64,000 bases of DNA from Waterburya agarophytonicola KI4. GTDB lineage: Bacteria > Cyanobacteriota > Cyanobacteriia > Cyanobacteriales > Xenococcaceae. The notes under the pieces were generated by a model. It was not told the DNA's origin. It made no database searches and saw only the letters and a list, made by a program, of their open reading frames with translations. Every line of letters begins with the position of its first letter. Position 1 is the stretch's first letter. Positions 2,425 through 46,998 of the stretch are shown here, in pieces. Both the position numbers and the translations under genes were made by a program. Where the stretch lies: NCBI RefSeq assembly GCF_020640915.1, contig NZ_JADWDC010000004.1, positions 62,001-126,000 of the forward strand, given 5' to 3'.

Positions 2425-2430
2425 ATAAGT

Positions 2431-5400: not shown

Positions 5401-5544
5401 TTAGCAGTTGCGATCGCAGGAGGAGTTATCGGAGCAACCTTTTTGGCACTGTACCTGATCCCCGCAGCTTATTTGGTAGTCATTCCAGGCAAAGGAAAGA
5501 GGTTAGCCTATCTTCCTTGTGCAGAGCCTTTGGAGACTTCATAG
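2431..5544 (+). CDS. RND efflux transporter permease (AcrB family)
   Basis: 1037 aa, normal length for an RND pump. TM1 is at residues 8-28, a large periplasmic loop follows, TM2-6 begin near 335, a second periplasmic loop follows, and the last helix cluster starts near 860. The TM4 proton-relay region reads [15 protein letters not shown], so the usual DD pair is DN; the second repeat has [13 protein letters not shown]. It works with the upstream adaptor to drive proton-coupled efflux. The charged C-terminus overlaps the converging MFS gene by 6 bases. Whether it exports metals or hydrophobic compounds is unknown; the Glu typical of metal-exporting HME pumps is not evident. Confidence 0.9.
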
Positions 5545-30592: not shown

Positions 30593-30686
30593 TTAGGTAA
30601 TTGTAGCGATTTCAAAATTTAAGATTCCCAAAAAGATATTACTAGCAAGATAAAGTATTCTGGAATATATTCGATATTCTTAAAAT

Positions 30687-32219
30687 TTAATTCACGTTTT
30701 GAAAAAGTTCGCGAGCGTCTTGAGGGATTACGTTAAGATTTTCACAACTTTTAAGACTCTTAGCAGTTTTCAGGCTGTAGTCATACCCAATTTCTGGATG
30801 AAAATAAGAACTGTAGTAAAAAGCGTGCTGGATTGCAGCAAATGGACTTTTACCTGGATTGGCAGTGTGACGACTGATTATACAGTTTTTTTCGTCAGGA
30901 ACGATGTGCTGTAGAAGTTCTAAATTAAGATTGTTTTTAAAAAAACTTTCAACGGTACGATTATCTTTTATTAAATAAAAACTCCTAATTTTGATACACA
31001 TTACGATGAAAAATATCAGATAAACCAGCATGAACAGCTTTGACTTGAACCACCCCCAACCATTATTGTGTAGAGACACAACAAGAAAAAGATTTAAAGA
31101 TACCAGAGTAATCATCCAAAACATAAAGTAGCGTAACTCATGCGATTGAGGAAAATTAGCTGGCACTAAGGATATTAAGAGTATTGTAACTAGGGCAATC
31201 GTGGCATCATTCGATCTGTTATTGGAAGATTTTTGCTTAGTCAATTGTTCTCTAATACTTAGCCCTAAAAGCATCAGCAAATTGAAAGCTACATAAGCTC
31301 CAAAAAACCCGCCTCCTCGTCCCAAGAGTTGTCGATCGCCACCATCGTTTGACTGATCGGCAGACCACTGGGGAGTATTTATTTCAAAGATAGACTGTAG
31401 CCATTTTTGAGGTCGATTACCCTGGCTGTAAGTTTGTGGGACTAATTTGTGGTTTAGAACAACTCCTGCTATCTCAATTTTGATTGGGTAAAAAGGATTG
31501 CCATAAAGGGCTACATTTTTGATGGGCGTAAAAAAAATTAAACCTGAAGCAAGTATTGCTAAAAGTATAGTTTGCCATAGTTTACGCTGTATCTTTTTCG
31601 TATGCCTAAAATATAACCAAACTAATCTAATTCCAATTACCCAGTAGAGAATGAAAATTAGAGGCTGTAGCTGAGGTTTTGTATTGGCAGCAGCAGCAGC
31701 AGCCAAAAAAGTAATGAGTAGTTCTTTTTGTTGGGGCAAACTAGATTGACAAAAAAACAGATATCCCATCATCATTACTACTGAAACTCCTATATTTCCT
31801 GGTAAATCTACAAAGCTAGTAGGAGCATGGGTTATTACTGCTGGAATAGTAAAAATAGCGATTGCCGATAAATATAGCGGAATCTTAAAATAAATTTTTA
31901 GGAAGAAAAAGTAAACTATTAAACTGAAATAACCTACTAAATTAGTCGCCTGAATTCTGCCAGTTATCTTCCATAATAATCCTTGGAAAAAGTGTGCCAG
32001 GAGAGGAAAACCATCGTAGCGAAATTCGATTTTGCTCTCTGAAGTAAAAGATTCGGCAGGAATTATTCCCCAAATTCTGGCAGCAAAAGGCAAATGATAC
32101 CAGCTCACATCATAGTTTGGATCGATATCAATAATTGCCTTGAGAAATATAGAGATAGTAATTCCAAGAGCAAAGATGCTTAATATACTCTCTATAAAAC
32201 CAAATTTTCTGTTCTGCAT
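30687..32219 (-). CDS. Polytopic membrane protein, possible GT-C glycosyltransferase
   Basis: 510 aa with about ten TM helices and a short C-terminal periplasmic domain. The first loop has NYDVSWYHLPFAARIWGIIP, and a later one has THAPTSFVDLPGNIG. Acidic residues in the first large loop and the overall layout recall GT-C type lipid-linked sugar transferases, but no family motif decides it. An Ala run (AAAAAA) comes from a GCA/CAG-type repeat near 31690. It lies downstream of no clear operon partner: 94 bases from the TpsA gene, 109 from the small gene. Function uncertain. Confidence 0.55.
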   Translation of the reverse strand: MQNRKFGFIESILSIFALGITISIFLKAIIDIDPNYDVSWYHLPFAARIWGIIPAESFTSESKIEFRYDGFPLLAHFFQGLLWKITGRIQATNLVGYFSLIVYFFFLKIYFKIPLYLSAIAIFTIPAVITHAPTSFVDLPGNIGVSVVMMMGYLFFCQSSLPQQKELLITFLAAAAAANTKPQLQPLIFILYWVIGIRLVWLYFRHTKKIQRKLWQTILLAILASGLIFFTPIKNVALYGNPFYPIKIEIAGVVLNHKLVPQTYSQGNRPQKWLQSIFEINTPQWSADQSNDGGDRQLLGRGGGFFGAYVAFNLLMLLGLSIREQLTKQKSSNNRSNDATIALVTILLISLVPANFPQSHELRYFMFWMITLVSLNLFLVVSLHNNGWGWFKSKLFMLVYLIFFIVMCIKIRSFYLIKDNRTVESFFKNNLNLELLQHIVPDEKNCIISRHTANPGKSPFAAIQHAFYYSSYFHPEIGYDYSLKTAKSLKSCENLNVIPQDARELFQNVN

Positions 32220-32328
32220 TCAAATTTGTGTCTGACTGGTATTCAGACATTTAAGTTCATTCAAGTTAAGTAGCAGAGTATACTATATTGTTACCTTTCC
32301 TTGTAAAGAGTTTATTGTTTACGTTAGG

Positions 32329-32568
32329 CTAATCGGATAAAGTATTTACAGCCTTTCTTGCTTCAGTTTCTGCTGCTTCTACCGTATAAAAAACTTCAGG
32401 GTAATCGTATGTACATTCAAACTCGTCGATAATAGAGAACTGATAGCAATGACCAGTTGAATGGTAGATCATAAAAATACGATTTTTAATTGCTATTACT
32501 ACTTCAATCCTGATTTGGTTCATTACTCTTGAGAGAAATGTATCTGGCAAAATTAGCCATTTGTTCAA
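32329..32568 (-). CDS. Small hypothetical protein coupled to the binding-protein gene
   Basis: 79 aa (64 if the second ATG, MNQIRIEVVIAIKNR, is used). No signal peptide or TM helix. It contains one CxY..FSIIDEFEC region and an acidic C-terminus (AAETEARKAV). Its start overlaps the stop of the substrate-binding protein gene by four bases, so it is the second gene of that operon. I do not recognise a family. Confidence 0.55.
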   Translation of the reverse strand: MNKWLILPDTFLSRVMNQIRIEVVIAIKNRIFMIYHSTGHCYQFSIIDEFECTYDYPEVFYTVEAAETEARKAVNTLSD

Positions 32569-33587
32569 CTAGATTTCGAGTAAGCCTCGACAAACTGAGA
32601 ATCTAATAAGCGTGATATATCTGGTTTTTCATCAATTATGTCGAGTTTTTGCTGAAGAAAATCTGTAATCTCTTTTGACATATTAAAGAGATTTGTAATG
32701 TCATTACTCTTATTAAAAGTAACTAAGTTATCTTCCAAGCTGAACATTTTCGTACCTGACTTGAGTAGCTGAAGCTCTTGGGGGCTAACTCCCGCCCGAC
32801 TTGCCATAATTTGGTCTGCCTCTTCAATATTTTTAGTCATGAAATCAAGAGTATCAAACCATGTATCGACCAATGCTTGAACTTTTTCAGGATGCCAATC
32901 TATTAATTCTCGACTTACTATCAACAAGTCGGGAATTGCTCCAGGAAATTCAGCCGAAGAGGTTATTTCATGCGCTCCTTCTTTCTTCAGCGCGGTATAC
33001 CAAAAAGGTGGGAATGCGCCTACTGCATTTGCTTGACCTGCTATAAAAGCTTCCACTGCTGCGCCAGTTTCCACATCTAAAATTTGAACGTCTTTGCGTG
33101 ACATTCCTACTCTGTCTAATGCCAAAGTTAAGAGAAAGTCATCGACAACTCCCGCTTCTACTGCCACCATTTTGCTTTTCAAATCCTCAACTTTATCAAT
33201 CCCTGCCTCAGCAATAATTTTGTCATTTCCCGCCGAATTATCGTTAACTAAAACTACTACCTCCCCTTTTACTGCCTCAGCAGCAAAGGAAATAGTGTCA
33301 TTAAGAGTTTGACAATTACCGTCAATGTACCCCGCAGCTAAGTCTTCCATCGATTGAGAATAATCGTCGTACCATCTAAGCTCAACTTGAAGATTATGCT
33401 TGGCAAATAGTCCTTTTTGTTCGGCGATCGCCCAGGGCCACCATCCAGCCCAGTTACTATATCCAATCGTAATAGTTGAATTAGCTAGAGGTGGTGTAGT
33501 TTCTGTGGTATAAAAATTATTTTGCCAATTAAATAATAGAAAACTTCCTATAAGTAGGAAAGCTAGTATCCAAAGTTTTTTTAACAT
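32565..33587 (-). CDS. Orphan ABC substrate-binding protein (NMT1/ThiY/SsuA-like)
   Basis: 340 aa. The hydrophobic N-terminus (WILAFLLIGSFLLFNW) is a signal anchor or signal peptide without a lipobox Cys. The body has the periplasmic-binding fold of the NMT1/SsuA group: TIGYSNWAGWWPWAIAEQKG, VELRWYDDYSQSMEDLAAGYIDG, then VKGEVVVLVNDNSAGNDKIIAEAGI and DLKSKMVAVEAGVVDDFLL. Ligands in the group include nitrate, sulfonates and thiamine precursors. No permease or ATPase gene is near, so it either serves a transporter elsewhere or acts as a sensor. Confidence 0.85.
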   Translation of the reverse strand: MLKKLWILAFLLIGSFLLFNWQNNFYTTETTPPLANSTITIGYSNWAGWWPWAIAEQKGLFAKHNLQVELRWYDDYSQSMEDLAAGYIDGNCQTLNDTISFAAEAVKGEVVVLVNDNSAGNDKIIAEAGIDKVEDLKSKMVAVEAGVVDDFLLTLALDRVGMSRKDVQILDVETGAAVEAFIAGQANAVGAFPPFWYTALKKEGAHEITSSAEFPGAIPDLLIVSRELIDWHPEKVQALVDTWFDTLDFMTKNIEEADQIMASRAGVSPQELQLLKSGTKMFSLEDNLVTFNKSNDITNLFNMSKEITDFLQQKLDIIDEKPDISRLLDSQFVEAYSKSS

Positions 33588-33808
33588 TTTAATTGCCCAA
33601 AGCGCAATAGCTATTGCGTGATTTTAAAGTGTGGATTATTTTATTTTCACGTTTTACCATAAAATATAACGCAATCCTAAAGCAGTAATTTATAGATTAT
33701 AAAAATTGTTATTTGATAGTAAAAATGTATCTTGTAAATTTGAAAAGATTTGAATAATTTGTTATCTTAATTATATCATTTTGTCTATAGTAAGAATGAT
33801 GTAATTTA

Positions 33809-34690
33809 TTACTTTAAATAGAAATTTTCCAACAGTTGCAAGAGATTTTCTTCTAAAGTAGTTAAATAGGGTTTGTCTAATTTAGCTAAACCATTAAGCA
33901 CCCACAAAGCAGCTTTATCTAATTTTCCTGTTTGATGAAGTTCGGTCATACGCACGCCTATATCTTCAATATTCTGATATTGTTCCGTATCAAATTCTGT
34001 TGATTCTAGATTACCTAGTGGTACTTCTAACTGGTCGTTCCAAGTATTGACGATACAATTACCATCGTTGACCTTCTCTACGATGCACCAACTGCCTCCT
34101 TTACCTTTTAGCTTGCTGTTGTTTTTAACCATAATTCGGCAAATTTCGCCTTCGGTAAAAGGATTTAATTGGGTATTATCTTGATCTAAATACAAATTAA
34201 CTGCTTCAGTGACAACAGAGCCACTTGGAATTTTACCATCAGCTAAAGCGATCGCCATTTGCCAAACCTCTACTTGGGCATCCGCGTCTAACTTTGCCTT
34301 GACAATCGGTCTTAACTGTCTTTGACGAGTTGGCAGTATTGAATGCCGACCATTGGTCGGTAGACTATCTATTAGGTTTTGATAGACTCTAGCTGCTGCC
34401 ATTTTGAGATAAGCATAGTCACTGCTATAACCGAAAACATCTTGACAAAATTCCTCGAAGCTAAGGTGGGTGCTGCGATAAAGCCTTAGTTGATTCAGTT
34501 CAATGAGAGCGAGTCCCGAACGATAAAAAGCAGTTTTAACATCTTGCTCTAGAGATAAACGCAATTCGGTTTCTTGAGCATTCAATGGCTCAAAGACAGA
34601 TAAACGCAATTCATCTTTAGTAGTTTTAGAAGCTTTGTATCTTGACCTTCGACCCACAATAAATTGACATTGAATAGATTGATTTATCAA
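33809..34690 (-). CDS. DNA-binding-like accessory protein (plasmid/integrase-associated type)
   Basis: 293 aa, TTG start (the only one before an in-frame stop). A helical N-terminal half contains LALIELNQLRLYRSTHLSFEEFCQDVFGYSSDYAYLKMAAA, read here as a KorB/ParB-like helix-turn-helix region (shown in key parts), then TRQRQLRPIVKAKL. The C-terminal half has an SH3/KOW-like stretch (GEICRIMVKNNSKLKGKGG). I know related proteins only from cyanobacterial plasmids and islands; no function is established. It is divergent from the STAND gene, with one copy of the 30-base inverted repeat between them, so it may bind or regulate there. Confidence 0.55.
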   Translation of the reverse strand: MINQSIQCQFIVGRRSRYKASKTTKDELRLSVFEPLNAQETELRLSLEQDVKTAFYRSGLALIELNQLRLYRSTHLSFEEFCQDVFGYSSDYAYLKMAAARVYQNLIDSLPTNGRHSILPTRQRQLRPIVKAKLDADAQVEVWQMAIALADGKIPSGSVVTEAVNLYLDQDNTQLNPFTEGEICRIMVKNNSKLKGKGGSWCIVEKVNDGNCIVNTWNDQLEVPLGNLESTEFDTEQYQNIEDIGVRMTELHQTGKLDKAALWVLNGLAKLDKPYLTTLEENLLQLLENFYLK

Positions 34691-34797
34691 TAATTATAGG
34701 TTGCTGAGGGTATATCTGACTGAGAAAACTGAGAGAGTAGAAATCCCTATTATCACTTTCTCAACTCCCACAACTACTGTAAAATCGTAGAGCTTTG

Positions 34798-34827
34798 TCG
34801 TGTCGGTTAACGCATAAGCTGCAAATA
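34798..34827 (-). repeat. Left copy of a 30-base inverted repeat flanking the STAND gene
   Basis: Read on the minus strand it starts TATTTGCAGCTTATGCG and ends TTAACCGACACGA. It matches 27 of 30 bases of the plus-strand sequence at 40033-40062, so the two form an inverted pair about 5.2 kb apart enclosing the 1639-aa gene. The HpaI-like GTTAAC core and the CARCTTATG core are shared with the array in front of the recombinase. Confidence 0.75.
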
Positions 34828-34963
34828 ATAATTCGAGCATAGGATTAGAGGTAGTCCATCTCGATAATAAGAGGACAATCGCATTTCTAAATCATTCAGA
34901 ATCTGGCAAATGTCAATATTATTGGTCATTATTGAGTAGGAATACATTAGTAGATATCAAAGT

Positions 34964-37900
34964 ATGCCTTTATCTGGTGGAGCTACTGACAAATTTGGCA
35001 ATCGATATGAAGGACTGTGGACAGTAGATTGCATAATAGATGTTATAGACGAAAAGGCTAGCTCAATTCGCCTAGAGCCACCAGGAGAAGAAGGGGAAGG
35101 AGTAGAGTTTTGGTTAGACAGGGATAATTGTCGTGAATATCATCAGGTAAAACGGCAAAACACACAAGGTCGTTGGTCGATTAGCGATTTAGCCAGCAAG
35201 CAAATATTGTCAAATTTTTACAAGAAACTGATTGAACCTAGCTCTAAATGCGTTTTTATTTCCACAGCTAAAGCTTATCAATTAGATGAATTAGCCGATA
35301 GAGCCAGAGGCTCGCAATCCTGGCAAGAGTTTAAAAAAGAGTTTTTTAGCTCTAAAGATTTGGAGCAAAGTTTTTACAAAATTGCTAGTCATTGGAGCGA
35401 ATATAGCGACAAAGAAATTGAAGAGGCAATCTCAGCAATTAATAATAGTAAACCAAGCTCTACCCATATACAGATAGATGGAATAGCGCAAAACGCATAT
35501 AAATTTCTCAAAAGAGTTGATGTTGAAACAGAAAGTGAAAGTAGACTAAGAAAAATTTTAGAAACTCGTCTTAGATATTTAGTAGAGAAAAATACTAATG
35601 ATCTATCTTTTCAAGACGAGTCGCCAACAATCGTAGATATATTAGCTCAATTTGCTTTAGACAAGGTTCATCATGAGTTAAATACTGTTGATATTTGGCA
35701 TCATCTTAAACAAAGGGGATATCGTCATCGCAATTGGAGCAAAGATTATCACGTATTAGCTGCTGTTCAAAATATTAATAATAGCTATGTTTCTAGACTA
35801 AAAGATATTGCGATCGCAGATAAGATAATTGCCCGTGATGAAACTCAAACTGTTCTGGAAAAACTAAAATACAGCTATGAAAAAAGAGCTTTACTGGTAA
35901 CGGGAGAAGCTGGAGTTGGCAAAAGTATAGTAATGCTTCAGGTGTTAGAAAATCTAATTAATGAAGGTGTTCCAATCCTATCTTTTCGCGTTGACAACCT
36001 CAATCCAGTAGCTCATCCAGATGATGTCGGTAAGCAGTTACAATTACCTGGTTCTCCTGCCACTGTATTAGCTAGTATTGCCCAAAAAAGAGAATGTGTT
36101 TTGGTAATCGATCAATTAGATGCAGTTAGCCTAACCTCTGGTCGTCATCCAGATTTTTTTGAGTGCATTAACGAAATTATTCAGCAAGCTTTAATTCATT
36201 CCAACATACATTTACTGGTAGCTTGTCGTAAATTCGATTTAGATAATGACCATAGATTAAAGAAGTTAACTGGGGAGCAAGGGATTGCTGAAACTATAAA
36301 CATTAATCGCCTTACTCATGACAAGGTTAAAGAGCTTGTTACAGAATTAAATTTAGATGTAAGTCGATTAAGTAGAAAACAGTTAGATTTATTATCGATT
36401 CCTCTACATCTTTATTTACTATCACAGATTGCTGAGGATTCAGACTTTAGTACTTTAAACTTTCAAACAGCTAAAGATCTATTCGATCGCTTTTGTGATT
36501 ACAAACAGGCAAAACTAAGAGAGCGTCTTGGTTATTCAGTAAAGTGGACTAAGGTAACTGACTCGCTTGTTAAATATATGAGTGATAAGCAAACTTTATT
36601 TGCTCCTGAAAATGTAGTCCGACACTACAAAGATGACGCAAAAATAATGACATCAGAGAATATATTAACTTGGAGTGGAAACAAAATTTCTTTTCTACAT
36701 CAAAGTTTTTTTGACTATTTATTTGTTGATTTTTTTGTAGAAAGTAATATCAATTTATTAGAGTTTCTGCAAGGCAATGAACAACATTTATTTCGGCGTA
36801 CTCAAGTCAGACAGATTTTAATTCACGAAAGAGAAACCGATCCTGATGAGTATATAGAACATCTTGAAGAATTGCTTACAAGTAATGATATTCGGTTTCA
36901 TATCAAACAAATAGTTTTTGCATGGTTGGGAACTTCAGAAGATCCGAAAGAAGAAGAATGGGAAATTTTAGCTTCTATTTTTGAAAGTGATGATACTTAT
37001 AGTATCAGTTCGGCTTGGTCGGCTATTTGTATGTCTATCTCTTGGTTTAGATTACTGCATTTAATAAGCGTAATAAAACAATGGCTCAATAGCGATCGAG
37101 AGCAAGATATCAATCGGGTAATTTATTTATTATGGAATGCTCAAAAAGGATCACCTGAAGTTGTTGCAGAAGTTTTAATTTCCTACATTAACGTTTCAGA
37201 AGAATGGGATCGACGTATTAATAAGATAATTAATCGCCTTGAGCTTGGAAATAATCATCAAATCTTCGATCTTTTTGCATATCTAATAAAAAAAGGTCAT
37301 TTTGTAGGAAAGAGTAAAACCGTTAATCATGAAAGAGATTTTTGGTCACAAATACATTCTTTAGTCAGAAAAAGACCTGATTGGGCTTGTGAGGCGATCA
37401 CAATTTATCTAAATCATTATCTAGATTTAAGCGTTGAAAATGGGCAAAATAATTTGTTCGCAAGAGATAATGATATTTATCCCTACAGTCAGAGTGCTGA
37501 TAGTGCGATTAATGAAACTGCCAAGAAATCTCCTAAATCTTTTGTTGTTAATGTTCTTCCATTTATTATTAGAATTGTCAAATTAAATGTAATTACTTCC
37601 GACGAGAAAATATTGAAAGATAAAGTATGGAAATACAAACATTATGGCTCTTATTACAATTTTGAGGACGTTCTTTTAATACATTTAGAAAATGCACTTC
37701 GCAACTTAGCAATTAATCAATCAGATAAATGTTCTGAAATTATTAATAATCACCTCATCCCGAATCGTGGTTACGACACCATAAAATATTTGTTGATTCG
37801 TACTTTTGCTGCTGATGGAGCTATATTCGCCAATGAAGCTGCTGATTTTCTCTGCGAAGAGCCAAGTAGATTAGCTACGGGATACGAGATTTGTAATGGT

Positions 37901-39883
37901 AATATTCATGCTTCTCCATATTGGGCAACACATCAGCTCTTAGTTGAGATAATTCCTTACTGTTCCACAACAAAACTAAAACAAATTGAAAGCTTGATAT
38001 TAAATTATTATCCGCAGTGGAATGGACTAAAGCAATATCAGTCTGATTTAATTTTGACTTTGCACAGTCAAAAGATAGAAATAATATTTAAGTTTTTGAA
38101 TCTATATCCAGAGCTACTTTACTGCATATATGTTTGTCAAACATATCAGTATTTAGAAAAAGTTCGCAAATATATCAAGTATACTCACCATCTATTAGGA
38201 TATCCACAGTTTACGCTATTAAACAGTTTTCGAGTTAGTGTTATCTCGCAATTGAACACTATATTGCCGAAGATAGTTGCATTTTTACTATCTGTTAAAG
38301 CCAATTATTTTAAGATTTCGTATCTAATTTTATTAAGTAGTAACAGACTTTTTGACTTAAGCGATGTTGTTGTTAATCGTTTGAGTGAATGGCAACGTAA
38401 GTTTAAATCAATAGGATTAATAGAAGATATAGAAGTTATTCAGCCTCCTGAAGCCATAGAAGCTTACGCAGTAGGTTCTCCAATTGAGCAGGATTCAGCA
38501 GACTACATGACAGATAAAGAATGGCTTAAAGCAATTTCTGCATACAGTGAAAGCGATATGAGATATAGATCGGACTTTACTAAAGGTGGAGCAGTAGAGC
38601 TATCGCGAACTTTAGAAAAATGCGTTCAAAAAGAACCTGTTCGTTTTGTTAATTTAATTGGACTTTTACCCGATGATACTAATACATCTTATTTCGATGC
38701 GGTGCTTCGTGGCATTGCAGAAGTAGAAGAAATAGACATTAGAATTGCTTTAAGTGCGGTTCAGAGGTGCGATCGATTACCTGGAAAACCCTGTGGAAGT
38801 TCTATTAGTTGGCTGTTCCAAAAATTAGCACGCTTACCTTGGTCTATTGGAGCTTTAAACATAATAATCTGCTATGCAACCACCGATCCAGATCCAGATC
38901 GAGAGCTATGGCGTACTGAGGCTTCAAATGGTCAGGTTTACTATGGTGGTGAAGTTTTTACGGCTGGCATAAATTCTGTTAGAGGTGCTGCGGTACAAGC
39001 GATCGCAAAACTAATTTTTGCCGACAAAACTCGTGGTGCTTATTTCCAATATGCCCTAGAGCAAATGGTTAGGGATAAATCTCTGGCTGTGCGTTCTTGT
39101 GCTGCTGAAGCATTAGTAGCCATGTTAAATTACGATCGCGATTTGGCAGTCAAATTATTTTTGACGCTTTGCGATACAGAAGATATTATTTTAGGAACAC
39201 AAACTGTTGATAGATTTTTATACTATGCAACACATAATCATCTTGAGACTCTCAAACCAATCTTAGAGAGAATGATATACTCTGATTCTCCACAAGCAGT
39301 AAAAGCGGGTGCGAGACAATCTTGTATAGCAGCTTTGGGAAATGAACAAGCCCAATCTTTAGTAGATTATTGTTTATCATCAGGAACTACCGCACATCGA
39401 AAAGCTTTGGCTCAAGTTTTTGCGAGTAATTTTAAATCCGCAGATTTTCGCCAATACTGCGAAGATGGATTGATTAAGCTTTTTCAAGATTCAGACGAAG
39501 AGGTTCGTTCTCAAGCAGCTAGATGTTTTTATGAACTAAAAGAAAATGAATTAGAAAATCATACAAATCTGCTGAAGGCATTCGTTAACAGTCCTTCTTT
39601 TGCTAGTGATTCGGAAGACTTAATCTATGCACTTGAAAAAACTACAGCCAAATTGCCAAAAGAAACCTACTTAGTTTGCGATCGCTTTGTCAAAAACCTT
39701 CAAGCGCAACAGCCAGAACAAAAAAGTTACATCAGAGATGGAGATCGAATTAGTCAATTACTTATAAGACTCTACACTCAATCAAAGAGACAAATGCGAG
39801 CGCAATGCTTAGATTTAATTGATCGCCTGTGTGAAATGAATGTTTATGGCTTAGATCGAGCTTTACTTGAATATGAAAGGTGA
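34964..39883 (+). CDS. Cap4-like nuclease-STAND NTPase-HEAT fusion, candidate defence protein
   Basis: 1639 aa. Residues 1-130 look like a Cap4/DUF4297 PD-(D/E)xK nuclease: SGGATDKFGNRYEGLW, IRLEPPG (Glu38), GVEFWL and the catalytic-type HQVKRQ (Gln61, Lys63). A STAND/NACHT ATPase follows: Walker A GEAGVGKS (314-321) and Walker B VLVIDQLDAVS (379-389). Then comes a long helical region with HEAT-like repeats near the end (about 1340-1530, e.g. DSDEEVRSQAARCFYEL). This layout is that of Avs-type sensors, which detect phage proteins and cut DNA. It stands alone, between the 30-base inverted repeats and next to a recombinase. Immune function is inferred, not shown. Confidence 0.8.
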   Translation: MPLSGGATDKFGNRYEGLWTVDCIIDVIDEKASSIRLEPPGEEGEGVEFWLDRDNCREYHQVKRQNTQGRWSISDLASKQILSNFYKKLIEPSSKCVFISTAKAYQLDELADRARGSQSWQEFKKEFFSSKDLEQSFYKIASHWSEYSDKEIEEAISAINNSKPSSTHIQIDGIAQNAYKFLKRVDVETESESRLRKILETRLRYLVEKNTNDLSFQDESPTIVDILAQFALDKVHHELNTVDIWHHLKQRGYRHRNWSKDYHVLAAVQNINNSYVSRLKDIAIADKIIARDETQTVLEKLKYSYEKRALLVTGEAGVGKSIVMLQVLENLINEGVPILSFRVDNLNPVAHPDDVGKQLQLPGSPATVLASIAQKRECVLVIDQLDAVSLTSGRHPDFFECINEIIQQALIHSNIHLLVACRKFDLDNDHRLKKLTGEQGIAETININRLTHDKVKELVTELNLDVSRLSRKQLDLLSIPLHLYLLSQIAEDSDFSTLNFQTAKDLFDRFCDYKQAKLRERLGYSVKWTKVTDSLVKYMSDKQTLFAPENVVRHYKDDAKIMTSENILTWSGNKISFLHQSFFDYLFVDFFVESNINLLEFLQGNEQHLFRRTQVRQILIHERETDPDEYIEHLEELLTSNDIRFHIKQIVFAWLGTSEDPKEEEWEILASIFESDDTYSISSAWSAICMSISWFRLLHLISVIKQWLNSDREQDINRVIYLLWNAQKGSPEVVAEVLISYINVSEEWDRRINKIINRLELGNNHQIFDLFAYLIKKGHFVGKSKTVNHERDFWSQIHSLVRKRPDWACEAITIYLNHYLDLSVENGQNNLFARDNDIYPYSQSADSAINETAKKSPKSFVVNVLPFIIRIVKLNVITSDEKILKDKVWKYKHYGSYYNFEDVLLIHLENALRNLAINQSDKCSEIINNHLIPNRGYDTIKYLLIRTFAADGAIFANEAADFLCEEPSRLATGYEICNGNIHASPYWATHQLLVEIIPYCSTTKLKQIESLILNYYPQWNGLKQYQSDLILTLHSQKIEIIFKFLNLYPELLYCIYVCQTYQYLEKVRKYIKYTHHLLGYPQFTLLNSFRVSVISQLNTILPKIVAFLLSVKANYFKISYLILLSSNRLFDLSDVVVNRLSEWQRKFKSIGLIEDIEVIQPPEAIEAYAVGSPIEQDSADYMTDKEWLKAISAYSESDMRYRSDFTKGGAVELSRTLEKCVQKEPVRFVNLIGLLPDDTNTSYFDAVLRGIAEVEEIDIRIALSAVQRCDRLPGKPCGSSISWLFQKLARLPWSIGALNIIICYATTDPDPDRELWRTEASNGQVYYGGEVFTAGINSVRGAAVQAIAKLIFADKTRGAYFQYALEQMVRDKSLAVRSCAAEALVAMLNYDRDLAVKLFLTLCDTEDIILGTQTVDRFLYYATHNHLETLKPILERMIYSDSPQAVKAGARQSCIAALGNEQAQSLVDYCLSSGTTAHRKALAQVFASNFKSADFRQYCEDGLIKLFQDSDEEVRSQAARCFYELKENELENHTNLLKAFVNSPSFASDSEDLIYALEKTTAKLPKETYLVCDRFVKNLQAQQPEQKSYIRDGDRISQLLIRLYTQSKRQMRAQCLDLIDRLCEMNVYGLDRALLEYER

Positions 39884-39929
39884 GTCCTCAATTGCGATTG
39901 CTTAACAGCAAAATATTACGCCAGATTTT

Positions 39930-40062
39930 TGCAACTTATGGTTTATTCAGTTCGGATATTATCAATTTATGTGTTAATTATTTTCAACTTATGCGTTAAT
40001 AACTATACTCAAAGCATTAAAAACCCATAAAGATATTTGCAACTTATGAGTTAACCAACACG
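39930..40062 (+). repeat. Phased array of four CARCTTATGnGTTAA repeats
   Basis: Four copies in the same direction: TGCAACTTATGGTTTAT (core at 39932), TCAATTTATGTGTTAAT (39963), TCAACTTATGCGTTAAT (39985) and TGCAACTTATGAGTTAACC (40039). Core spacings are 31, 22 and 54 bases, close to 3, 2 and 5 helical turns, so proteins would bind on one face. The last copy extends to the 30-base right inverted repeat (40033-40062). It fills the gap between the STAND gene and the recombinase and could be a recombination site, an iteron set or an operator. Confidence 0.7.
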
Positions 40063-40160
40063 ATTGAGTCGTAAATCGAAAATTAAGGTAGACCTGAGAT
40101 ACATAAATAGTTAGACGTTTAATGGGATAATTCTTAACTAAATATATATTGAGAATTTTC

Positions 40161-41174
40161 ATGTCCGAGCTGACGAGTGTTGTTACTCGTTTAGAAGCAT
40201 CACTAGTTACCCCTATTGGTTCGTCATTCCCGATTGAAAGCGAACCAGATGTTGTTGCTCAATTATTAGCCCTAAAGCGATCGCCAAATACTAGAAGAGC
40301 TTACTCAAAAGATATCAAAGATTTTTTTCAAGTAATAGTAGAATCCGAACCGACAAGAGATTTAGTTCTAGAATTTCTTCACCTGGAACAAACTCAAGCA
40401 GTACAGTTGGTTCTCAACTATAAAGCTAAATTAATTAATAAAGAATTAAAAGCTGCGACAATTAACCGCCGTTTAGCTGCGCTCAAATCTCTGACAAAAA
40501 TTGGTCGAAATATTGGAGTTTGTAACTATACTCTTGAAAATATTCCTAGAGAGAAAAATCAACCCTATCGAGATACGACAGGAGTTGATAAAGATGCTAT
40601 TAACCGAGTGTTTGTTTTGGCAGAACAAGTTAAAAAAGCAAAAACTCATCGCTCTAGATTAAAAGGAATTAGGGACTACGCATTGCTAAGATTGCTATGG
40701 GGCAACGCCCTGCGTCGAGGAGAAATATCATCAAGCAATATTAGTGATTTTAATTTTGGGGCTAAAACTCTCTTGATTATAGGTAAAGGAAGCGGCGGAG
40801 AAAAACAAAAAATTACCTTACCTCCAAAAAGTGCGATCGCTATTTCCGAATGGTTATTAGCAAGAGGAGAAGATGCAATTGACGCACCGTTATTTACTGC
40901 GGTAGATAACGCTAATTATGGCAAGCGATTGAGTGGGAATGCTATTTATACGATGGTTGATAAGCTGTGTGTCGCTGCTGGTATTCCGAAAAAAATGTCA
41001 CCCCATAGAATTAGACATAGTGCCATTACTGCTGCTTTAGATGCGACAGACGGTAATATTAGAAAGGTACAAAAACTAAGCCGTCACAAAGACATCAATA
41101 CGGTAATGACTTACGACGATAACCGTAGTAATGACCAAGATGAAATGAGTCAATTACTCGATGATTTAATTTAG
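40161..41174 (+). CDS. Tyrosine recombinase / integrase
   Basis: 337 aa from ATG 40161 (a TTG four codons earlier is less likely). A SAM-like core-binding domain (about 30-130; SPNTRRAYSKDIKDFF, AATINRRLAALKSL) precedes the catalytic domain. Active-site residues are visible: Arg in WGNALRRGEI, His-x-x-Arg in MSPHRIRHSAIT, His in KLSRHKDI and Tyr in TVMTYDDNR. It catalyses site-specific cutting and joining of DNA. The repeat array directly in front and the inverted 30-mer beyond the STAND gene are plausible substrates (inference). Confidence 0.93.
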   Translation: MSELTSVVTRLEASLVTPIGSSFPIESEPDVVAQLLALKRSPNTRRAYSKDIKDFFQVIVESEPTRDLVLEFLHLEQTQAVQLVLNYKAKLINKELKAATINRRLAALKSLTKIGRNIGVCNYTLENIPREKNQPYRDTTGVDKDAINRVFVLAEQVKKAKTHRSRLKGIRDYALLRLLWGNALRRGEISSSNISDFNFGAKTLLIIGKGSGGEKQKITLPPKSAIAISEWLLARGEDAIDAPLFTAVDNANYGKRLSGNAIYTMVDKLCVAAGIPKKMSPHRIRHSAITAALDATDGNIRKVQKLSRHKDINTVMTYDDNRSNDQDEMSQLLDDLI

Positions 41175-41283
41175 TATGATTTGATGAATAGTCAAAAAAG
41201 AACTACTGTAACTTGAAGGATAAAATGGCACCAATGTGGCACTAATGGAATCATAAAATGACACTTCTCTGAAAGTTCATCTA

Positions 41284-41763
41284 GGCGTTGTGACAGCAAA
41301 CGGACAAAATAATGCTCTCTCGTATAATTCGATAAAATAAATTTCTGAAACCTTTACTCCATAGTGCTTTTGATTTTTGTTGGCAAATACTCTGTGGAAT
41401 AAGCTTCCTACTAGGTGTGCATCTCTCACCATCAATTAAGAATCTATATTCCAAGTTCCAGAACCTTCTTGAGATTCAGCCCAAGCTAAAGCTTCCGTAT
41501 CTCTTTTTTTTGAACCAACATCGTAGTAATTCCACAATTCATTTTCAGATAATCTTCCGAGTCCATCACACCAATCACACTTATTGTCGGCGTAATTGTC
41601 ATCAACTCCAGTCCCATTACAGGCAGGACAATCATGTATGAGACATAATTAAATCATATTCATCACGTTATTATTTAGCTTAAATTACTTCGAGTTCAAC
41701 TGTGCATATAAGTAAACTTGTACGAAAGAGCATTGTTTTTTGTCCGTTTGCTGTCCCAACGCC
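41284..41763. mobile_element. 480-bp element with 41/43-base terminal inverted repeats
   Basis: Left end starts GGCGTTGTGACAGCAAACGG; right end finishes CCGTTTGCTGTCCCAACGCC. The two arms match over about 36 of 41 positions, with two extra Ts on the right. No transposase is inside, only a broken small gene (41436-41646), so it is a non-autonomous or deleted element. No target duplication is visible. The right end abuts a truncated multicopper oxidase. IS family not assigned. Confidence 0.75.
41436..41646 (-). pseudogene. Small DnaJ-type zinc-finger protein, frameshifted
   Basis: ATG at 41646 opens MSHT and stops at once; four bases later another frame runs to TAA 41436-41438. Removing four bases (a CATA/ACAT-type duplication) joins them into about 68 aa: MSHDCPACNGTG, then KCDWCDGLGRLSENELW and a tail ending WNIDS. 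The two CxxCxGxG units resemble half of a DnaJ zinc finger. It lies inside the 480-bp element as cargo. The plus-strand frame across it is only its shadow. Confidence 0.6.
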
Positions 41764-41794
41764 ATTTATGGTTCTCCGATAACATTCCGATTAG

Positions 41795-42103
41795 GCTGAC
41801 GAACTCCAGGGCGATCGCATTCACACTCAAGTAAAACTCAATACTGTTGAAGATTGGGAATTAATTAATACGGGAGTAATGGATCATCCCTTCCACGTTC
41901 ACGGGAATGCTTTTCAAGTCATTAGTCGCGACGGTCAACCAGAATCTTTACTAGCTTGGCGAGATACGGTGCTAGTAAAAAGAGGAGAAACCGTGCGTAT
42001 CCGCATACCTTTTAATGATTTTACGGGTAAAACTGTCTATCACTGTCATGTTCTCGACCACGAAGATTTAGGCATGATGGGTAATTTAATGATTGAATCT
42101 TAA
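41795..42103 (+). pseudogene. Multicopper oxidase, C-terminal fragment
   Basis: In-frame coding starts after TAG 41792-41794 and continues to TAA 42103, about 102 aa: RIHTQVKLNTVEDWELINTG, DHPFHVHGNAFQVI, and the type 1/3 copper motif TVYHCHVLDHEDLGMMG (His-Cys-His...His...Met). Roughly the first three quarters of the enzyme are missing; the DNA to the left belongs to the 480-bp element. The internal ATG at 41879 gives no functional product. A complete but different two-domain oxidase is at 53568-54647. Confidence 0.75.
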
Positions 42104-42313
42104 TTGTTAGCAATTGTTTAAAAAAGTAGTTATAAATTAACTATTTCCAATAAAAAGGTAATTATAAAATTGGCATGAAATATATACATTATTTCTTAGC
42201 TAACTGTTGCTGAGTTTATTAATAGACAATAATGAAAAAATGATGAAATGCAGCTATATCTAAAGCAATAAATACAGTTTATAGCGATCGATAGAAGTAT
42301 TAATAACAATCAA

Positions 42314-42351
42314 TTCCTATTATTTTGATATTGCCAATTAAGTAATAGGAA
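42314..42351 (+). promoter_or_regulatory. Stem-loop covering the ribosome binding site of the Csp gene
   Basis: TTCCTATTA (42314-42322) pairs exactly with TAATAGGAA (42343-42351), and the second arm contains the AGGAA ribosome binding site for the ATG at 42359. The structure could block translation until opened, or the DNA dyad could be an operator. The rest of 42104-42313 is AT-rich with no gene. Confidence 0.45.
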
Positions 42352-42358
42352 ATATCTA

Positions 42359-42694
42359 ATGTTATTAGTTCACGAAGAATATCAATCCAGCTTCGATGTC
42401 GCGATGAAATGTGCAGTGGAATGCGAACACTGTGCTGAAGCCTGTATGGGCAATCCCGATATGCTCCAGTGCGCTCGCACTTGCCTCGACTGTGCGGAGA
42501 TATGCCGTACTATCTCTACGTATATGGTGCGCGGTTCTCGCTTCATTCCCAACTTAACCAAAGCCTGTGCCGAGATTTGTACCGCTTGCGCTGAAGAATG
42601 CGGTTCTCATGACATGGATCATTGCCAAAAATGCGCTCAGGCTTGTCGCGAAGCAGTTGAAGAATACAACAAAATTGCTGCTGTAGCTGCCTAG
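42359..42694 (+). CDS. Four-helix-bundle copper-binding protein (Csp-like, DUF326)
   Basis: 111 aa with 15 or so Cys, arranged as Cx3C/Cx2C in helices: CAVECEHCAEAC, CARTCLDCAEIC, CAEICTACAEEC and CQKCAQAC. This is the pattern of bacterial copper-storage proteins, where the Cys line the core of a four-helix bundle and bind many Cu(I). There is no signal peptide, so it resembles the cytosolic Csp3 type. It heads the copper block of the island; a stem-loop overlaps its ribosome binding site. Confidence 0.88.
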   Translation: MLLVHEEYQSSFDVAMKCAVECEHCAEACMGNPDMLQCARTCLDCAEICRTISTYMVRGSRFIPNLTKACAEICTACAEECGSHDMDHCQKCAQACREAVEEYNKIAAVAA

Positions 42695-42703
42695 AAAAAA
42701 ATA

Positions 42704-42749
42704 AGCGGAGGCTGAAAAGTTTTTAACATTTAGCTTTTCTCTTTCCGCT
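42704..42749 (+). terminator. Hairpin after the Csp gene
   Basis: AGCGGA and GAAAAG pair with CTTTTC and TCCGCT around a T-rich loop. It begins ten bases after the Csp stop codon and ends 42 bases before the DUF305 gene. It looks like a terminator or attenuator, though no U-run follows. Confidence 0.45.
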
Positions 42750-42791
42750 ACACACTTTTATTTATCGACATCATTAAATCTCTCATTCGCT

Positions 42792-43295
42792 ATGAAATCT
42801 ACTTACGACTCTAAATCTAAATCCGAGATGAAATCAAAATCGAGCATGAAGCCTTATATTACTTTGTTTATTTCATTGGTAATTTCCTACGTGGTGATGT
42901 TTGCCATCATGTTTTCGCGGGTCAACGAGTGGAGTAACTTGTTTATCAGCTTAAACCAAGTGTATATGACGGGATTAATGATCTCGACGATGCTCATTAT
43001 TATGCTGCTGACAATGGGTTCTATGTTTGCCAACAAAACCCTAAATCTCGTGCTTCTGGCATCGGGAGTAGCACTGATCTTAATGTTCTGGACTTTAGTA
43101 AGAAATCAAGTAGGAGTTGGAAACCAACAGTTTTTGCGCTCGATGATTCCCCACCATGCTGCTGCAATTCTCGTCTGTCAGCAATCATCTTTGACTAATC
43201 CCCGCATTGAAGAATTATGTGTGGAGATCGTTAAGACTCAAAAGGAAGAGATTGCAATTATGAAAGAACTGATGGAGACACCCGATCTAAGTTGA
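42792..43295 (+). CDS. DUF305 membrane protein
   Basis: 167 aa. Three hydrophobic segments (about 27-48, 55-77, 80-100) are followed by a DUF305 motif: FLRSMIPHHAAAILVCQQ, then EIVKTQKEEIAIMKELM. DUF305 proteins often sit in copper-resistance clusters, and the HH pair may bind metal. The protein begins with a Ser/Lys-rich cytoplasmic stretch. It lies between Csp and CopB genes on the same strand. Confidence 0.8.
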   Translation: MKSTYDSKSKSEMKSKSSMKPYITLFISLVISYVVMFAIMFSRVNEWSNLFISLNQVYMTGLMISTMLIIMLLTMGSMFANKTLNLVLLASGVALILMFWTLVRNQVGVGNQQFLRSMIPHHAAAILVCQQSSLTNPRIEELCVEIVKTQKEEIAIMKELMETPDLS

Positions 43296-43343
43296 GGGCT
43301 GTATAGCGATTACGCTGCGCTTATTAAAGATCGTAAATAATTA

Positions 43344-43374
43344 TTGACTCTCTAGCTAGGTAGAGATTGAAAAC
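43344..43374 (+). promoter_or_regulatory. MerR/CueR-type promoter of copB (weaker)
   Basis: TTGACT (43344-43349), a 19-base spacer with the dyad CTCTAGCTAGGTAGAGA, then a poor -10 (GAAAAC, 43369-43374). The long spacer with a dyad is the hallmark of MerR-family control. Transcription would begin near 43381, downstream of the TTG at 43367, so translation must start at the ATG 43406. Confidence 0.6.
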
Positions 43375-43405
43375 TAAATATAGTTGCTTTTTAGGTTTAA
43401 CTTCT

Positions 43406-45460
43406 ATGCAAAAGGTTAAAGAAGAACACCATCACAACCATCATTCAAAACACCATCATAGCGAGCATCATAGTCATCACGAGCCTCATGGACATGGCGG
43501 ACATGACAAACACGCTGGTCACAGTCCCGAAATATTCAAGCGTCGCTTTTTTATCTGTTTAATCCTTACTCTACCAGTTCTCTATTTTTCCTCACAGTTA
43601 CAAAATTGGTTAGGTTATCAAGCCATCGAGTTTCCTGGTTCTAACTGGGTCAATCCCATTCTAGGCATCGTCATTTATTTCTATGGTGGCTGGGTATTTT
43701 TGAGGGGTGCTTGGCGAGAATTACATAGCAAAGTAGGGATGATGACCCTGATTGCCCTGGCAATTACGGTAGCTTTTGTCTACAGTCTGGCAGTCTCTCT
43801 GGGACTGCGGGGTAAGCCTTTCTATTGGGAACTGGTGACATTAGTAGATATTATGCTGCTGGGTCACTGGGTTGAGATGGCATCAGTTAAGGGTGCATCC
43901 CAAGCTTTAGAATCCCTCAAAGAATTAGTCCCCGCCCAGGCGCATCTTTGGCGTAATGGGAGAGTAGAAGATATTTCTGTCACCGAAGTAAGAGCCGAAG
44001 ACACCATATTGATTCGTCCTGGGGAACAAGTTCCCAACGATGGAGAAGTCATAGAAGGGTCAACCGAAGTCGATGAAGCTTTCTTAACTGGTGAATCCCG
44101 TCTCATACCCAAACAAGTAGGAGATGAAGTAGTAGCGGGTTCGGTGAATAGCGCGGGTTCGATTAAAGTTAAAGTCACGCGCACGGGAGATGAAACCACC
44201 CTCAGCCAAATTATGCGTTTGGTGGAAGAAGCACAAAACTCCCGCAGTAACTATCAAGCTTTAGCCGATCGCATTGCCTATTGGTTGACTATTATTGCGA
44301 TCGCAGCAGGAACTTTAACCTTTGTGGTTTGGTTATCCATCTCCGATTTGGTATTTGCCATCAATCGCGCCGTAACTGTGCTGGTGATTACCTGTCCTCA
44401 TGCTTTGGGTTTAGCAATTCCTTTAGTTATTGCCAACTCCACTGCTTTAGCTGCCAAAAACGGCATTCTGGTTCGCAATCGCGATGCTCTAGAAAGAGCT
44501 AGAGATATTAAAACGATGGCGTTTGACAAGACGGGAACGCTGACGGAAGGACATTTTGGAGTCCAAAAAATCTATGTTTACGGCATGGGTGAAGATGAAG
44601 CACTAGCGATCGCAGCAGCTTTAGAAACTTCTTCGGAACATCCTTTGGGTAAAGCGATCGTCGAAGCAGCAGAATTTGAAGAGTTAAGATTACCTCAGAT
44701 GACCAACTTTGAAACTGTAACGGGCAGAGGGGTAAAAGGAGTAATTAAAGGCAAAACCTATCAAGTCGGTAGACCTGAGTGGATTGAGGAACAGCAGCTA
44801 TATCTGCCGAATTCTTTGCAAAAAGGCTTAGATATTGCCGATGATAGGGGTGAAAGTGCAGTAGTGCTACTAGATGAATCCCAAGCAGTAGCGGTGATTT
44901 CGATGGCAGATAAAGTCAGAGAAAGAGCCAGAGAAACCATCAACAAACTCAATCAAGAAGGTATACAACCCGTAATGATTACAGGGGATGCCGAAGCTGT
45001 TGCCAGAACTGTCGCTCAAGATCTGGGTATCGATCGCTATTATGCCCGTGTCTTACCCGAAGATAAGGTAAACATCATCAAACAGCTAAAGCAAAGACAG
45101 CCCACCGCTTTTGTTGGTGATGGGATTAACGATGCTGCTGCTTTGCTAGAAGCCAATATGGGTTTAGCCATTGGTGCGGGAACAAATGTAGCGATTGAAT
45201 CTGCGGATTTAGTTTTGATTGAAGATGATCCTTTAGATGCAGTTAAAGCCCTCAACCTTGCCAAGAAAACCTATAGCAAAATGATTCAAAATCTTTTCTG
45301 GGCAACGGGTTACAACATTGTTGCTATTCCCCTAGCTGCTGGGGTGCTGTCTGCCTGGGGTTTTGTGCTTTCACCAGCTATAGGTGCGTTGTTGATGAGT
45401 CTATCAACCGTAATTGTGGCAATTAATGCTGTTCTGTTACGTCGAGCTAAACTTGCCTAA
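43406..45460 (+). CDS. copB: CopB-type heavy-metal P1B-ATPase (CPH motif)
   Basis: 684 aa from ATG 43406; a TTG at 43367 is excluded because the promoter places transcription after it. The N-terminus is a His-rich tail (EEHHHNHHSKHHHSEHH) instead of an HMA domain. P-type ATPase motifs: TGES, the membrane metal site TCPHALGLAIPL, DKTGTLTEG, SSEHPLGKAI and GDGINDAAAL. CPH enzymes of the CopB group export Cu or Ag. It complements CopA at 48306-50588. MerR-type control upstream. Confidence 0.9.
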   Translation: MQKVKEEHHHNHHSKHHHSEHHSHHEPHGHGGHDKHAGHSPEIFKRRFFICLILTLPVLYFSSQLQNWLGYQAIEFPGSNWVNPILGIVIYFYGGWVFLRGAWRELHSKVGMMTLIALAITVAFVYSLAVSLGLRGKPFYWELVTLVDIMLLGHWVEMASVKGASQALESLKELVPAQAHLWRNGRVEDISVTEVRAEDTILIRPGEQVPNDGEVIEGSTEVDEAFLTGESRLIPKQVGDEVVAGSVNSAGSIKVKVTRTGDETTLSQIMRLVEEAQNSRSNYQALADRIAYWLTIIAIAAGTLTFVVWLSISDLVFAINRAVTVLVITCPHALGLAIPLVIANSTALAAKNGILVRNRDALERARDIKTMAFDKTGTLTEGHFGVQKIYVYGMGEDEALAIAAALETSSEHPLGKAIVEAAEFEELRLPQMTNFETVTGRGVKGVIKGKTYQVGRPEWIEEQQLYLPNSLQKGLDIADDRGESAVVLLDESQAVAVISMADKVRERARETINKLNQEGIQPVMITGDAEAVARTVAQDLGIDRYYARVLPEDKVNIIKQLKQRQPTAFVGDGINDAAALLEANMGLAIGAGTNVAIESADLVLIEDDPLDAVKALNLAKKTYSKMIQNLFWATGYNIVAIPLAAGVLSAWGFVLSPAIGALLMSLSTVIVAINAVLLRRAKLA

Positions 45461-45533
45461 CTATCGGTGATAAAAGCTCAAACTCGATCTAATTAACAAA
45501 ACATTTGAAGAGCAAAACAATGAAATATGCGAC

Positions 45534-45911
45534 ATGGATAAGAATGAATCTTTAGCCAAAAATGCCTCAAAAATAACCGAGATAGTAAATCCCACAACCC
45601 CTCCAGAAACTCCGACTAAAGAAACATTGACTGGTTATAGCGGTCTATTGGAAGTGTTGCTTATGGGCATGGTGACAGTAGCAGGATTTTATTTGCTGTA
45701 CCGCAAATCTAAACTACATTTAGATAAAGCTAACCCTCCAAAGCCAAATGTTTTCAAGCGGTTTTCTCAACAAAGTTGTAGTAAGTGTCGTTTCTTTAAT
45801 AAAAACGAGCATCTTAAATGTGCGGTACATCCAGTTTTAGTAAGCAAAATTAAAGCTAAAGATTGCCCTGACTATTGGCAACGCGATCGCCCTAAATTCC
45901 TACATCGTTAA
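45534..45911 (+). CDS. Small membrane protein with a C-terminal Cys cluster
   Basis: 125 aa: Thr/Pro-rich N-terminus, one TM helix (about 38-58, LLEVLLMGMVTVAGFYLLYR), then CSKCRFFNKNEHLKC and DCPDYW, a four-Cys pattern that could hold a metal. I know similar small proteins from cyanobacteria but no function. It lies 16 bases before the ion-channel gene. The ATG at 45534 has no obvious ribosome binding site. Confidence 0.6.
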   Translation: MDKNESLAKNASKITEIVNPTTPPETPTKETLTGYSGLLEVLLMGMVTVAGFYLLYRKSKLHLDKANPPKPNVFKRFSQQSCSKCRFFNKNEHLKCAVHPVLVSKIKAKDCPDYWQRDRPKFLHR

Positions 45912-45927
45912 TCCAATTAGTAATTTA

Positions 45928-46998
45928 ATGAACTGGTTAACTCAAACAATTGGCACGGGACTAATAATTATTGCTGCAATCGATATATTTATTACCGTTT
46001 TATATCCCCGCACTGGCAATAGTATTGTAAGTTTGCCTTTGGGTAGGGGAGTTTGGCACATATTTCGTTGGTTAGCACGCTGGACGAAGAGCGTTCGCCT
46101 GATGGCTTACTGTGGTTCGGTTGTTTTGGTAGTCGTAGCCATCTTTTGGATTGCTTTATTTCTCATCGGTTTTGCCTTAATTGTTTGGTCGATGTTGGGG
46201 GAGGAGATTGTTGCCAGCAGTGGAAAAACTCCTACCGATTTTGGTACTGCTATTTACTATAGTGAATTTAACTTTACTACTTTGGGAATTGGCGATTTAG
46301 TACCTCAAAGCACTGTTTGTTGATTATTGACTATCTTACAGGCAGGATTGGGATTTGCCACTTTTACCGTTACCCTAACCTACCTGCTTTCGGTGCTAAA
46401 TGCTCTGACTCAAAGAAACCTCTTTGCCCTGAGTCTGCACCATCGCACGGGTACAAAAGGCAATGCTGCCGAATTGTTGTTAGGTTGGGGGACGGGCGGT
46501 GAATTCGATAATGCCAAGCAAGATATTACCAACATGGCACAGGATTTACTGCAATTACTCGAATCTCACAATTCCTATCCCGTTTTACACTACTTTCGCT
46601 TCCCAGAGGCTCATTACTCTCTGGCGCGAATGATTTTGATAACGATGGATACGGCTACGTTAATTAAAACCGCACTGTGCGATCGAGAATATAAAAGCTT
46701 AATCTACTCTACTGCTGTCACCGAATTACAATCGAGCGGTTTATATACCTTAAAGCAGTTAGCAGATTCCTTTTTGCCTCAAGGTGCGATTGCATCCTAC
46801 TCCTGTGAAGCTCAATGGCGTGAATGGTATTACTACGTTATTCGACGGCTACAGTCTGAGGGCATCAAAACCCCAGAAGATATCGAAACTGGTGCGGATA
46901 AATATGTTTCTCTGCGACGGGAGTGGAATAGTGAGGTAGCAGCTTTTGCCAAGCACATGGCATACAGATGGAGCGATATTGCCCCAGCACAACCATAA
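45928..46998 (+). pseudogene. Potassium-channel-like protein with an in-frame TGA
   Basis: One reading frame of 357 codons broken by TGA at 46321-46323. Upstream part: two to three TM helices and the selectivity filter FNFTTLGIGDLVPQ. Downstream part: last TM helix (LLTILQAGLGFATFTVTLTYLL) and a cytoplasmic domain of about 190 aa. The stop lies between filter and pore-lining helix, so the upstream product would lack the inner gate. A start of the second part at ATG/TTG 46327 would give no channel. Two point changes (TGG CGA to TGT TGA) would explain it. Likely a recent pseudogene; readthrough is possible. Confidence 0.8.

Follow-up and report, generated by a model that had tools for sequence, protein, structure and literature searches.

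A probable non-autonomous Tn7-like element carrying a single STAND ATPase gene beside a cyanobacterial tyrosine recombinase gene

Background

Defence genes are known as cargo of Tn7-like transposons, as set out in the portion of Benler et al. 2021 (PMC8649781) drawn on here. Two further lines of work, likewise used in excerpt, concern how such transposons choose their targets: Tn5053 targets plasmid resolution sites with a single TniQ (PMC11406308), and tyrosine recombinases acting in trans have been suggested as an early mode of target selection (Faure et al. 2023, PMC10293859). A search of literature titles for a Tn7-like family directed by tyrosine recombinases, or for a Tn7-like element holding a single STAND gene, found none, which does not establish absence in print.

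The locus described here lies in Waterburya agarophytonicola KI4, in a stretch of 64 kb (the whole of the DNA analysed, called the window below). Positions 34801-40060 very probably represent a 5.26-kb non-autonomous Tn7-like element that lacks a transposase and carries one gene, for a STAND ATPase. What looked like an immune switch operated by a recombinase thus becomes a transposon question, with a putative immune gene alone between Tn7-like ends.

Results and discussion

The inverted repeats match Tn7-like transposon ends

A preliminary description of this DNA had reported a 30-base inverted repeat, matching at 27 of 30 bases, that encloses only a 1639-aa gene and has its right copy about 100 bases before the ATG of a tyrosine recombinase gene; it had proposed a mobile or invertible cassette handled by that recombinase. 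A scan of the window for inverted 30-mers (at least 27/30 matching, no more than 10 kb apart, arms separated by more than 100 bp) finds exactly one pair, 34798-34827 and 40034-40063, matching at 27/30; the right copy lies one base to the right of the position first given (40033-40062). Four first-order Markov resamplings of the window contained zero such pairs. The single ORF of at least 80 aa between the copies (34964-39883) and the measured 98 bp from the right copy to the recombinase ATG at 40161 bear out the rest of the reported geometry.

In the organism's own genome (5.1 Mb in 149 contigs, 99.98% complete) the site pattern with up to two mismatches has five matches, exact only at the two flanking copies, while the reversed pattern has 0 under the same search, which rules out a repeat scattered genome-wide. 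With at most one mismatch the pattern occurs in 18 of 291 genomes of the order, mostly as single sites; a genome of the same genus, G217, stands out among the 291 with five matches. Extending the pattern scan to 84,980 species genomes gives 10 loci, five of them cyanobacterial (two of these in LEGE 10410). The five others (Chryseobacterium, Mucilaginibacter, Subsaximicrobium and two Nitrospirae) look like chance matches, and the single site in Alkalinema may be another.

On the right, the repeat copy forms the outer member of an array of four degenerate direct copies (39927-40054); on the left the copy is single, and on both sides similarity to transposon ends extends past the 30 bp. The right side is an L-type end (39922..40060, minus strand, terminus TGTTGGTTAACTC) with four TnsB-type sites, at 40035-40054, 39980-39999, 39958-39977 and 39927-39946. 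It matches positions 2872-2734 of locus L064, an element that encodes TnsA-TnsB-TnsC-TniQ, at 80.6% identity over 139 bp, and the match stops at the terminus. The site spacing, 0/55/77/108, is common to the window, L064, L119, L065 and L066, these last four L ends coming from two related genomes. The left side is an R-type (TnsA-side) end (34801..34874, plus strand, terminus TGTCGGTTAACGC) with one TnsB-type site at 34807-34826. It matches the R end of L064/L063 in two blocks, 34795-34825 (31 bp at 90-96%) and 34807-34874 (69 bp at 85.5%). R-end sites fall at 0/21/41/63 in L064, in L063 and in the distant Allocoleopsis locus L194; the window keeps the first site of the four and then passes directly into sequence found inside site 4, the 63 bp with further sites that lie between the R-end blocks in relatives being absent. 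Inward of the window R end, no continuing similarity to TnsA was found.

Both termini read TGTYGG, and the ends have the multi-site form with TGT...ACA termini by which Tn7-like elements are recognized, complete at the L end and with one site of four at the R end. With a full L end on the right and the matching R end on the left, 34801-40060 is best read as a Tn7-like element; since the STAND ORF is the only one inside, with no TnsB, TnsC or TniQ, we class it as a non-autonomous derivative, not a complete member. No tns gene was found between the ends, and tblastn with two Tns sets gave no match anywhere in the window.

Both ends have counterparts in a TnsA-TnsB-TnsC-TniQ family from the same bacterial family, the L end by the order and spacing of its sites and both by their termini. 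The mobile part of the earlier proposal is supported, the repeats being Tn7-like ends that bracket TnsA, TnsB, TnsC and TniQ genes in the same genus. In G217, motif arrays form the two ends of L064 2734-9672, and the genes inside are those for TnsA, TnsB (with rve and Mu_C domains), TnsC of the TniB type and TniQ. A distant complete relative, L194 on the Allocoleopsis plasmid pMIC7113.04, has TGTCGG termini and an exact AAGTA duplication, and between its termini holds only TnsA, TnsB, TnsC, TniQ and a small hypothetical gene.

The 5-bp target duplication is absent from the window element, whose outer flanks are TGTCG at the R-type end (34796..34800) and CGATT at the L-type end (40061..40065). 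Among eight elements compared the duplication is exact in L194 only; no exact copy was found in L064 (ATTAC, one-base offset), L063/L119 (taken as a pair from two contigs), L195, L196, L208, L209 or L212. The missing duplication and the truncated R end, together with the existence of stacked and nested members (L066, L196), are what a composite remnant could also produce, in which each end stems from a separate insertion and the intervening STAND gene is host sequence or older cargo, the whole never having moved as a unit. Against this, there is one L and one R end, facing inward correctly with nothing else between them, and the ends lie 89 bp and 38 bp from the STAND gene. We consider such a composite improbable.

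As to the history of a true element, its tns genes would have been lost or replaced, and TnsB would have brought it to its present place by cut-and-paste transposition, the enzymes being provided in trans. In the organism's own genome the best TnsB match to this transposon family has 25% identity (E 8e-15). The want of a close TnsB there, together with the one-site R end, suggests that the element is now stranded. Other Tn7-like genes do occur in this genome, with TnsA and TnsB beside a GlmS-like gene on contig C73, TniQ on C27, and TniQ with a Cas6-like gene on C20.

Another element with a single gene between both ends was looked for at six loci and not found, and L067, L107, L108, L112 and L117 show lone end-like sites with no partner within the stretch read. 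One of these, L107 5542-5600 (genome G046), is a lone L-type end whose two sites lie 31 bp apart, as though the segment from site 1 to site 3 were missing, which is the kind of loss that the window R end also shows. The window L end has no match in 72,556 plasmid records. Beside the L ends of L064 and L119, copies of a gene of about 163 aa lie both inside and outside the end, an arrangement that suggests repeated insertion at one place.

The cargo gene

The STAND ATPase gene (34964..39883, plus strand, 1639 aa) is assigned as such from Pfam, conserved residues, a profile match to PDB 9n00 and PADLOC. Pfam places HEAT and NPHP3_N above the cut-off and nSTAND_NTPase5 below it. The protein has a P-loop, GEAGVGKS, at 314-321 and C-terminal HEAT-like repeats, and its N-terminal part has a conserved E48...H60-Q61-x-K63, presumably a nuclease-like motif. 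These residues are invariant across 11 STAND relatives, and it is from them only that we infer an effector part. A profile of the 11 relatives matches PDB 9n00 ('AAA family ATPase') with E 6.3e-36, in two stretches that cover both halves; a literature search by the 9n00 entry codes found no paper. The PADLOC match is to PDC-M54A (E 3.9e-16), and we take the closest known proteins to be the Avs-like STAND immune proteins. By its architecture, then, this would be an immune protein, one that might sense a phage component, assemble, and arrest or kill the infected cell.

STAND relatives occur in 14 of 388 genomes, the organism's own included (E<=1e-60). When the surroundings of the other 13 were scanned for Tns genes within their contigs or fetched stretches, none was found in 11 of the 13 within the stretches read, and L154 gave one 65-aa TnsA-like match. 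Clear Tns genes surround the relative at L163 (genome G169; 44% identical to the window protein): a TnsA-TnsB fusion, TnsC, two TniQ and Cas6, with three neighbours without a Pfam hit, three 40-nt repeats just before the STAND gene, and the whole set within 28-nt inverted repeats. We take L163 to be a type I-B CAST (CRISPR-associated transposon). The STAND relative sits at 9138-14288 of L163, between the CRISPR repeats and tniQ-tnsC-tnsAB. A relative of the gene is therefore also cargo of a CRISPR-associated Tn7-like element, and at least two Tn7-like lineages have taken up members of the STAND family.

The neighbouring recombinase and the cassette reading

A XerC-like tyrosine recombinase gene (40149..41174, plus strand, ATG at 40161; Pfam Phage_integrase, 1.4e-20) lies just outside the element. 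By eye the protein keeps R, HxxR, H and Y, which we take to be the catalytic residues of tyrosine recombinases. These residues, and its position 98 bp from the right copy, are what speaks for the repeats being core sites at which this enzyme inverts or excises the STAND gene. The same ends, however, bracket tns genes in G217, where no relative of the window recombinase is found at E<=1e-60. Conversely, the 22 loci of recombinase relatives (two own-genome paralogues, at 76% and 66%, and 20 others) show, in the stretches read, no end array of the window's transposon family and no Tns gene. Nor does the right copy resemble a simple core site, being part of a conserved four-copy L-end array. The cassette reading is on this evidence largely refuted, and very improbable as an account of the repeats: of the earlier proposal, handling by the recombinase and invertibility are unsupported, and the search of related genomes suggested with it finds such sites beside the recombinase's relatives at 0 of 22 loci. 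A lone weak site appears at one of the 22, L169 (score 15.3, under a site model trained on 14 sites from the window and its relatives and biased toward finding relatives of these). A ParA match lies nearby in 8 of the 22.

It is likelier that the recombinase belongs to the landing site than that it moves the element. Two loci found later via TnsB, L214 and L216, encode recombinases 46% identical to that of the window, and at both an R end belonging to the wider transposon family follows the recombinase stop closely, after 27 and 14 bp. Such R ends suggest that the transposon may prefer the neighbourhood of recombinases as a target, a different idea from that of the preliminary description. TnsC/TniQ target selection would then have put the Tn7-like element beside a tyrosine recombinase gene, a frequent place for the family.

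Recombinases beside members of the transposon family

The family was gathered by TnsB, from 16 of 388 genomes at E<=1e-100 and from 12 plasmid records at E<=1e-60, the four cyanobacterial ones being used. G065 (same coordinates as L194) was not recounted, and G162, whose contig begins inside TnsA, is unscored. At 16 of the 19 loci scored, at least 4 kb lies outside TnsA; G046, read on into its adjoining stretch, is the seventeenth and counts as a miss. We counted a tyrosine recombinase if it lies outside the TnsA side, points away and starts within 4 kb of the TnsA start (at L210, where no TnsA was found, the distance is from the TnsB match). Such a gene is present at 9 of the 17 loci: L063, L064, L194, L195, L208, L210, L215, L217 and L218. 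The misses are of several kinds. At L212 the recombinase is 4,054 bp away, and at L196 it is 5.7 kb away, behind another Tn7-like set; L209 has no more than an 86-aa fragment, in the opposite orientation; L214 and L216 have a recombinase at 0.2 kb oriented toward TnsA; and L213, L110 and G046 have no recombinase at all.

Control windows have far fewer: 404 kb of other loci holds a single recombinase (20 of 2950 windows, 0.7%), and 150 kb from three of the plasmids themselves holds two fragments (21 of 1380 windows, 1.5%). Uncollapsed, 9 of 17 has P 9.4e-13 at the 1.5% background and 1.2e-5 at an inflated 10%; collapsing the nine to four recombinase groups (4 of 12) gives 2.4e-5 at 1.5% and 0.026 at 10%. 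Between groups recombinase identity is below 40%, and often about 25%, the exception being one 45-aa match. The recombinase model was built on 12 proteins, some of them counted later, and is biased toward their relatives. The excess may reflect a landing-site preference like that of the Tn5053 'res hunters'; it is correlative, and weaker once related loci are collapsed.

The alternative is coincidence, these genes being common on the cyanobacterial plasmids where the transposons land, and we give it somewhat less than an even chance. The window's recombinase family is indeed plasmid-borne, on 111 plasmid records (all below 60% identity) whose ten commonest genera are cyanobacterial, e.g. Nostoc, Tolypothrix and Calothrix. 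Eight of the 17 loci lack a recombinase so placed, the collapsed 4 of 12 leaves only P 0.026 if the background is set at 10%, no convincing core site was found, and the window recombinase is at the L end, opposite to the TnsA side of the nine counted loci. What coincidence explains poorly is 9 of 17 against control windows of 0.7% and 1.5%, and the second kind of close contact at L214 and L216. A more specific proposal, that this cyanobacterial Tn7-like family seeks unrelated plasmid tyrosine recombinases by sensing the site-bound enzyme and not a single conserved gene, as a tyrosine-recombinase analogue of the res hunters, and spawns single-gene STAND elements that reach those plasmids, is tentative, and we would hold it rather doubtful. 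If the preference does hold, it offers a natural case for the published suggestion of trans-acting tyrosine recombinases as target selectors, and a plasmid-targeting route with no need of TnsE or CRISPR.

The insertion site

Outside the R-type end lies a gene for a 293-aa protein of unassigned function (33809..34690, minus strand, no Pfam hit), whose family is present in 84 of 388 genomes. A divergent tyrosine recombinase lies upstream of its relatives in 10 of the 30 loci read, and four of the six closest loci are among those ten, with the recombinase within 55-150 bp; insertion of the element may have separated two genes so paired. The recombinases of those loci belong to other groups than the window's, so the idea is only suggestive. 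An empty site was found neither among the loci of recombinase relatives nor among eight loci of the left-flank gene.

Palindromes occur near some transposon ends, and a search for recombinase core-site palindromes in six intergenic loci and the joined window flanks found none that was significant (the best reached in 56 of 1000 shuffles). At L224, L226 and L227, between the left-flank gene family and a divergent recombinase, near-palindromes with arms of about 11 bp can be seen by eye (for example TACTGCGAGAA...TTCCTCGTAGTA), none significant singly; these are perhaps a recombinase site.

Farther out, 26-bp inverted repeats (96%) 428 bp apart at 41284-41763 look like a small insertion sequence or MITE; similar arms occur at L065 8027-8065. 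A multicopper-oxidase C-terminal remnant (41804-42103, Cu-oxidase_2, E 8e-25) follows just after, and genes of metal-efflux type lie at 1021-5544, 43367-45460, 48306-50588 and 59464-61437 (an RND pump with its fusion protein, and three P-type ATPases). No Rfam family was found in 30000-46000, and no tRNA in the window.

Comparison with known systems

In its protein plan the window protein resembles the Avs-like STAND proteins and PDB 9n00, with an N-terminal effector-like part, a STAND ATPase and C-terminal repeats; it is assigned to no named type, and its antiphage role is putative. The type I-B CAST at L163 shares with the window a relative (44%) of the STAND gene, and differs in its TnsA-TnsB fusion, its Cas genes and its other ends, as a separate Tn7-like lineage.

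With the Tn7-like transposons that carry defence genes, as far as the excerpt of PMC8649781 describes them, the locus shares the TnsA/TnsB/TnsC/TniQ family, multi-site ends, TGT termini and defence cargo; unlike them, it has no tns gene, a single cargo gene and a one-site R end. Its family shares with the Tn5053 'res hunters', in the part of PMC11406308 used, a single TniQ and possibly a preference for insertion near plasmid site-specific recombination genes, whereas here the recombinases are tyrosine and not serine enzymes, TnsA is present and targeting of recombination sites is putative. Tn6022 with TnsF, and Tsy, as presented in the excerpt of PMC10293859, likewise tie a tyrosine-recombinase protein to Tn7-like target choice; TnsF is encoded by the transposon and inactivated, whereas the window recombinase lies outside the element and, from its sequence, looks active.
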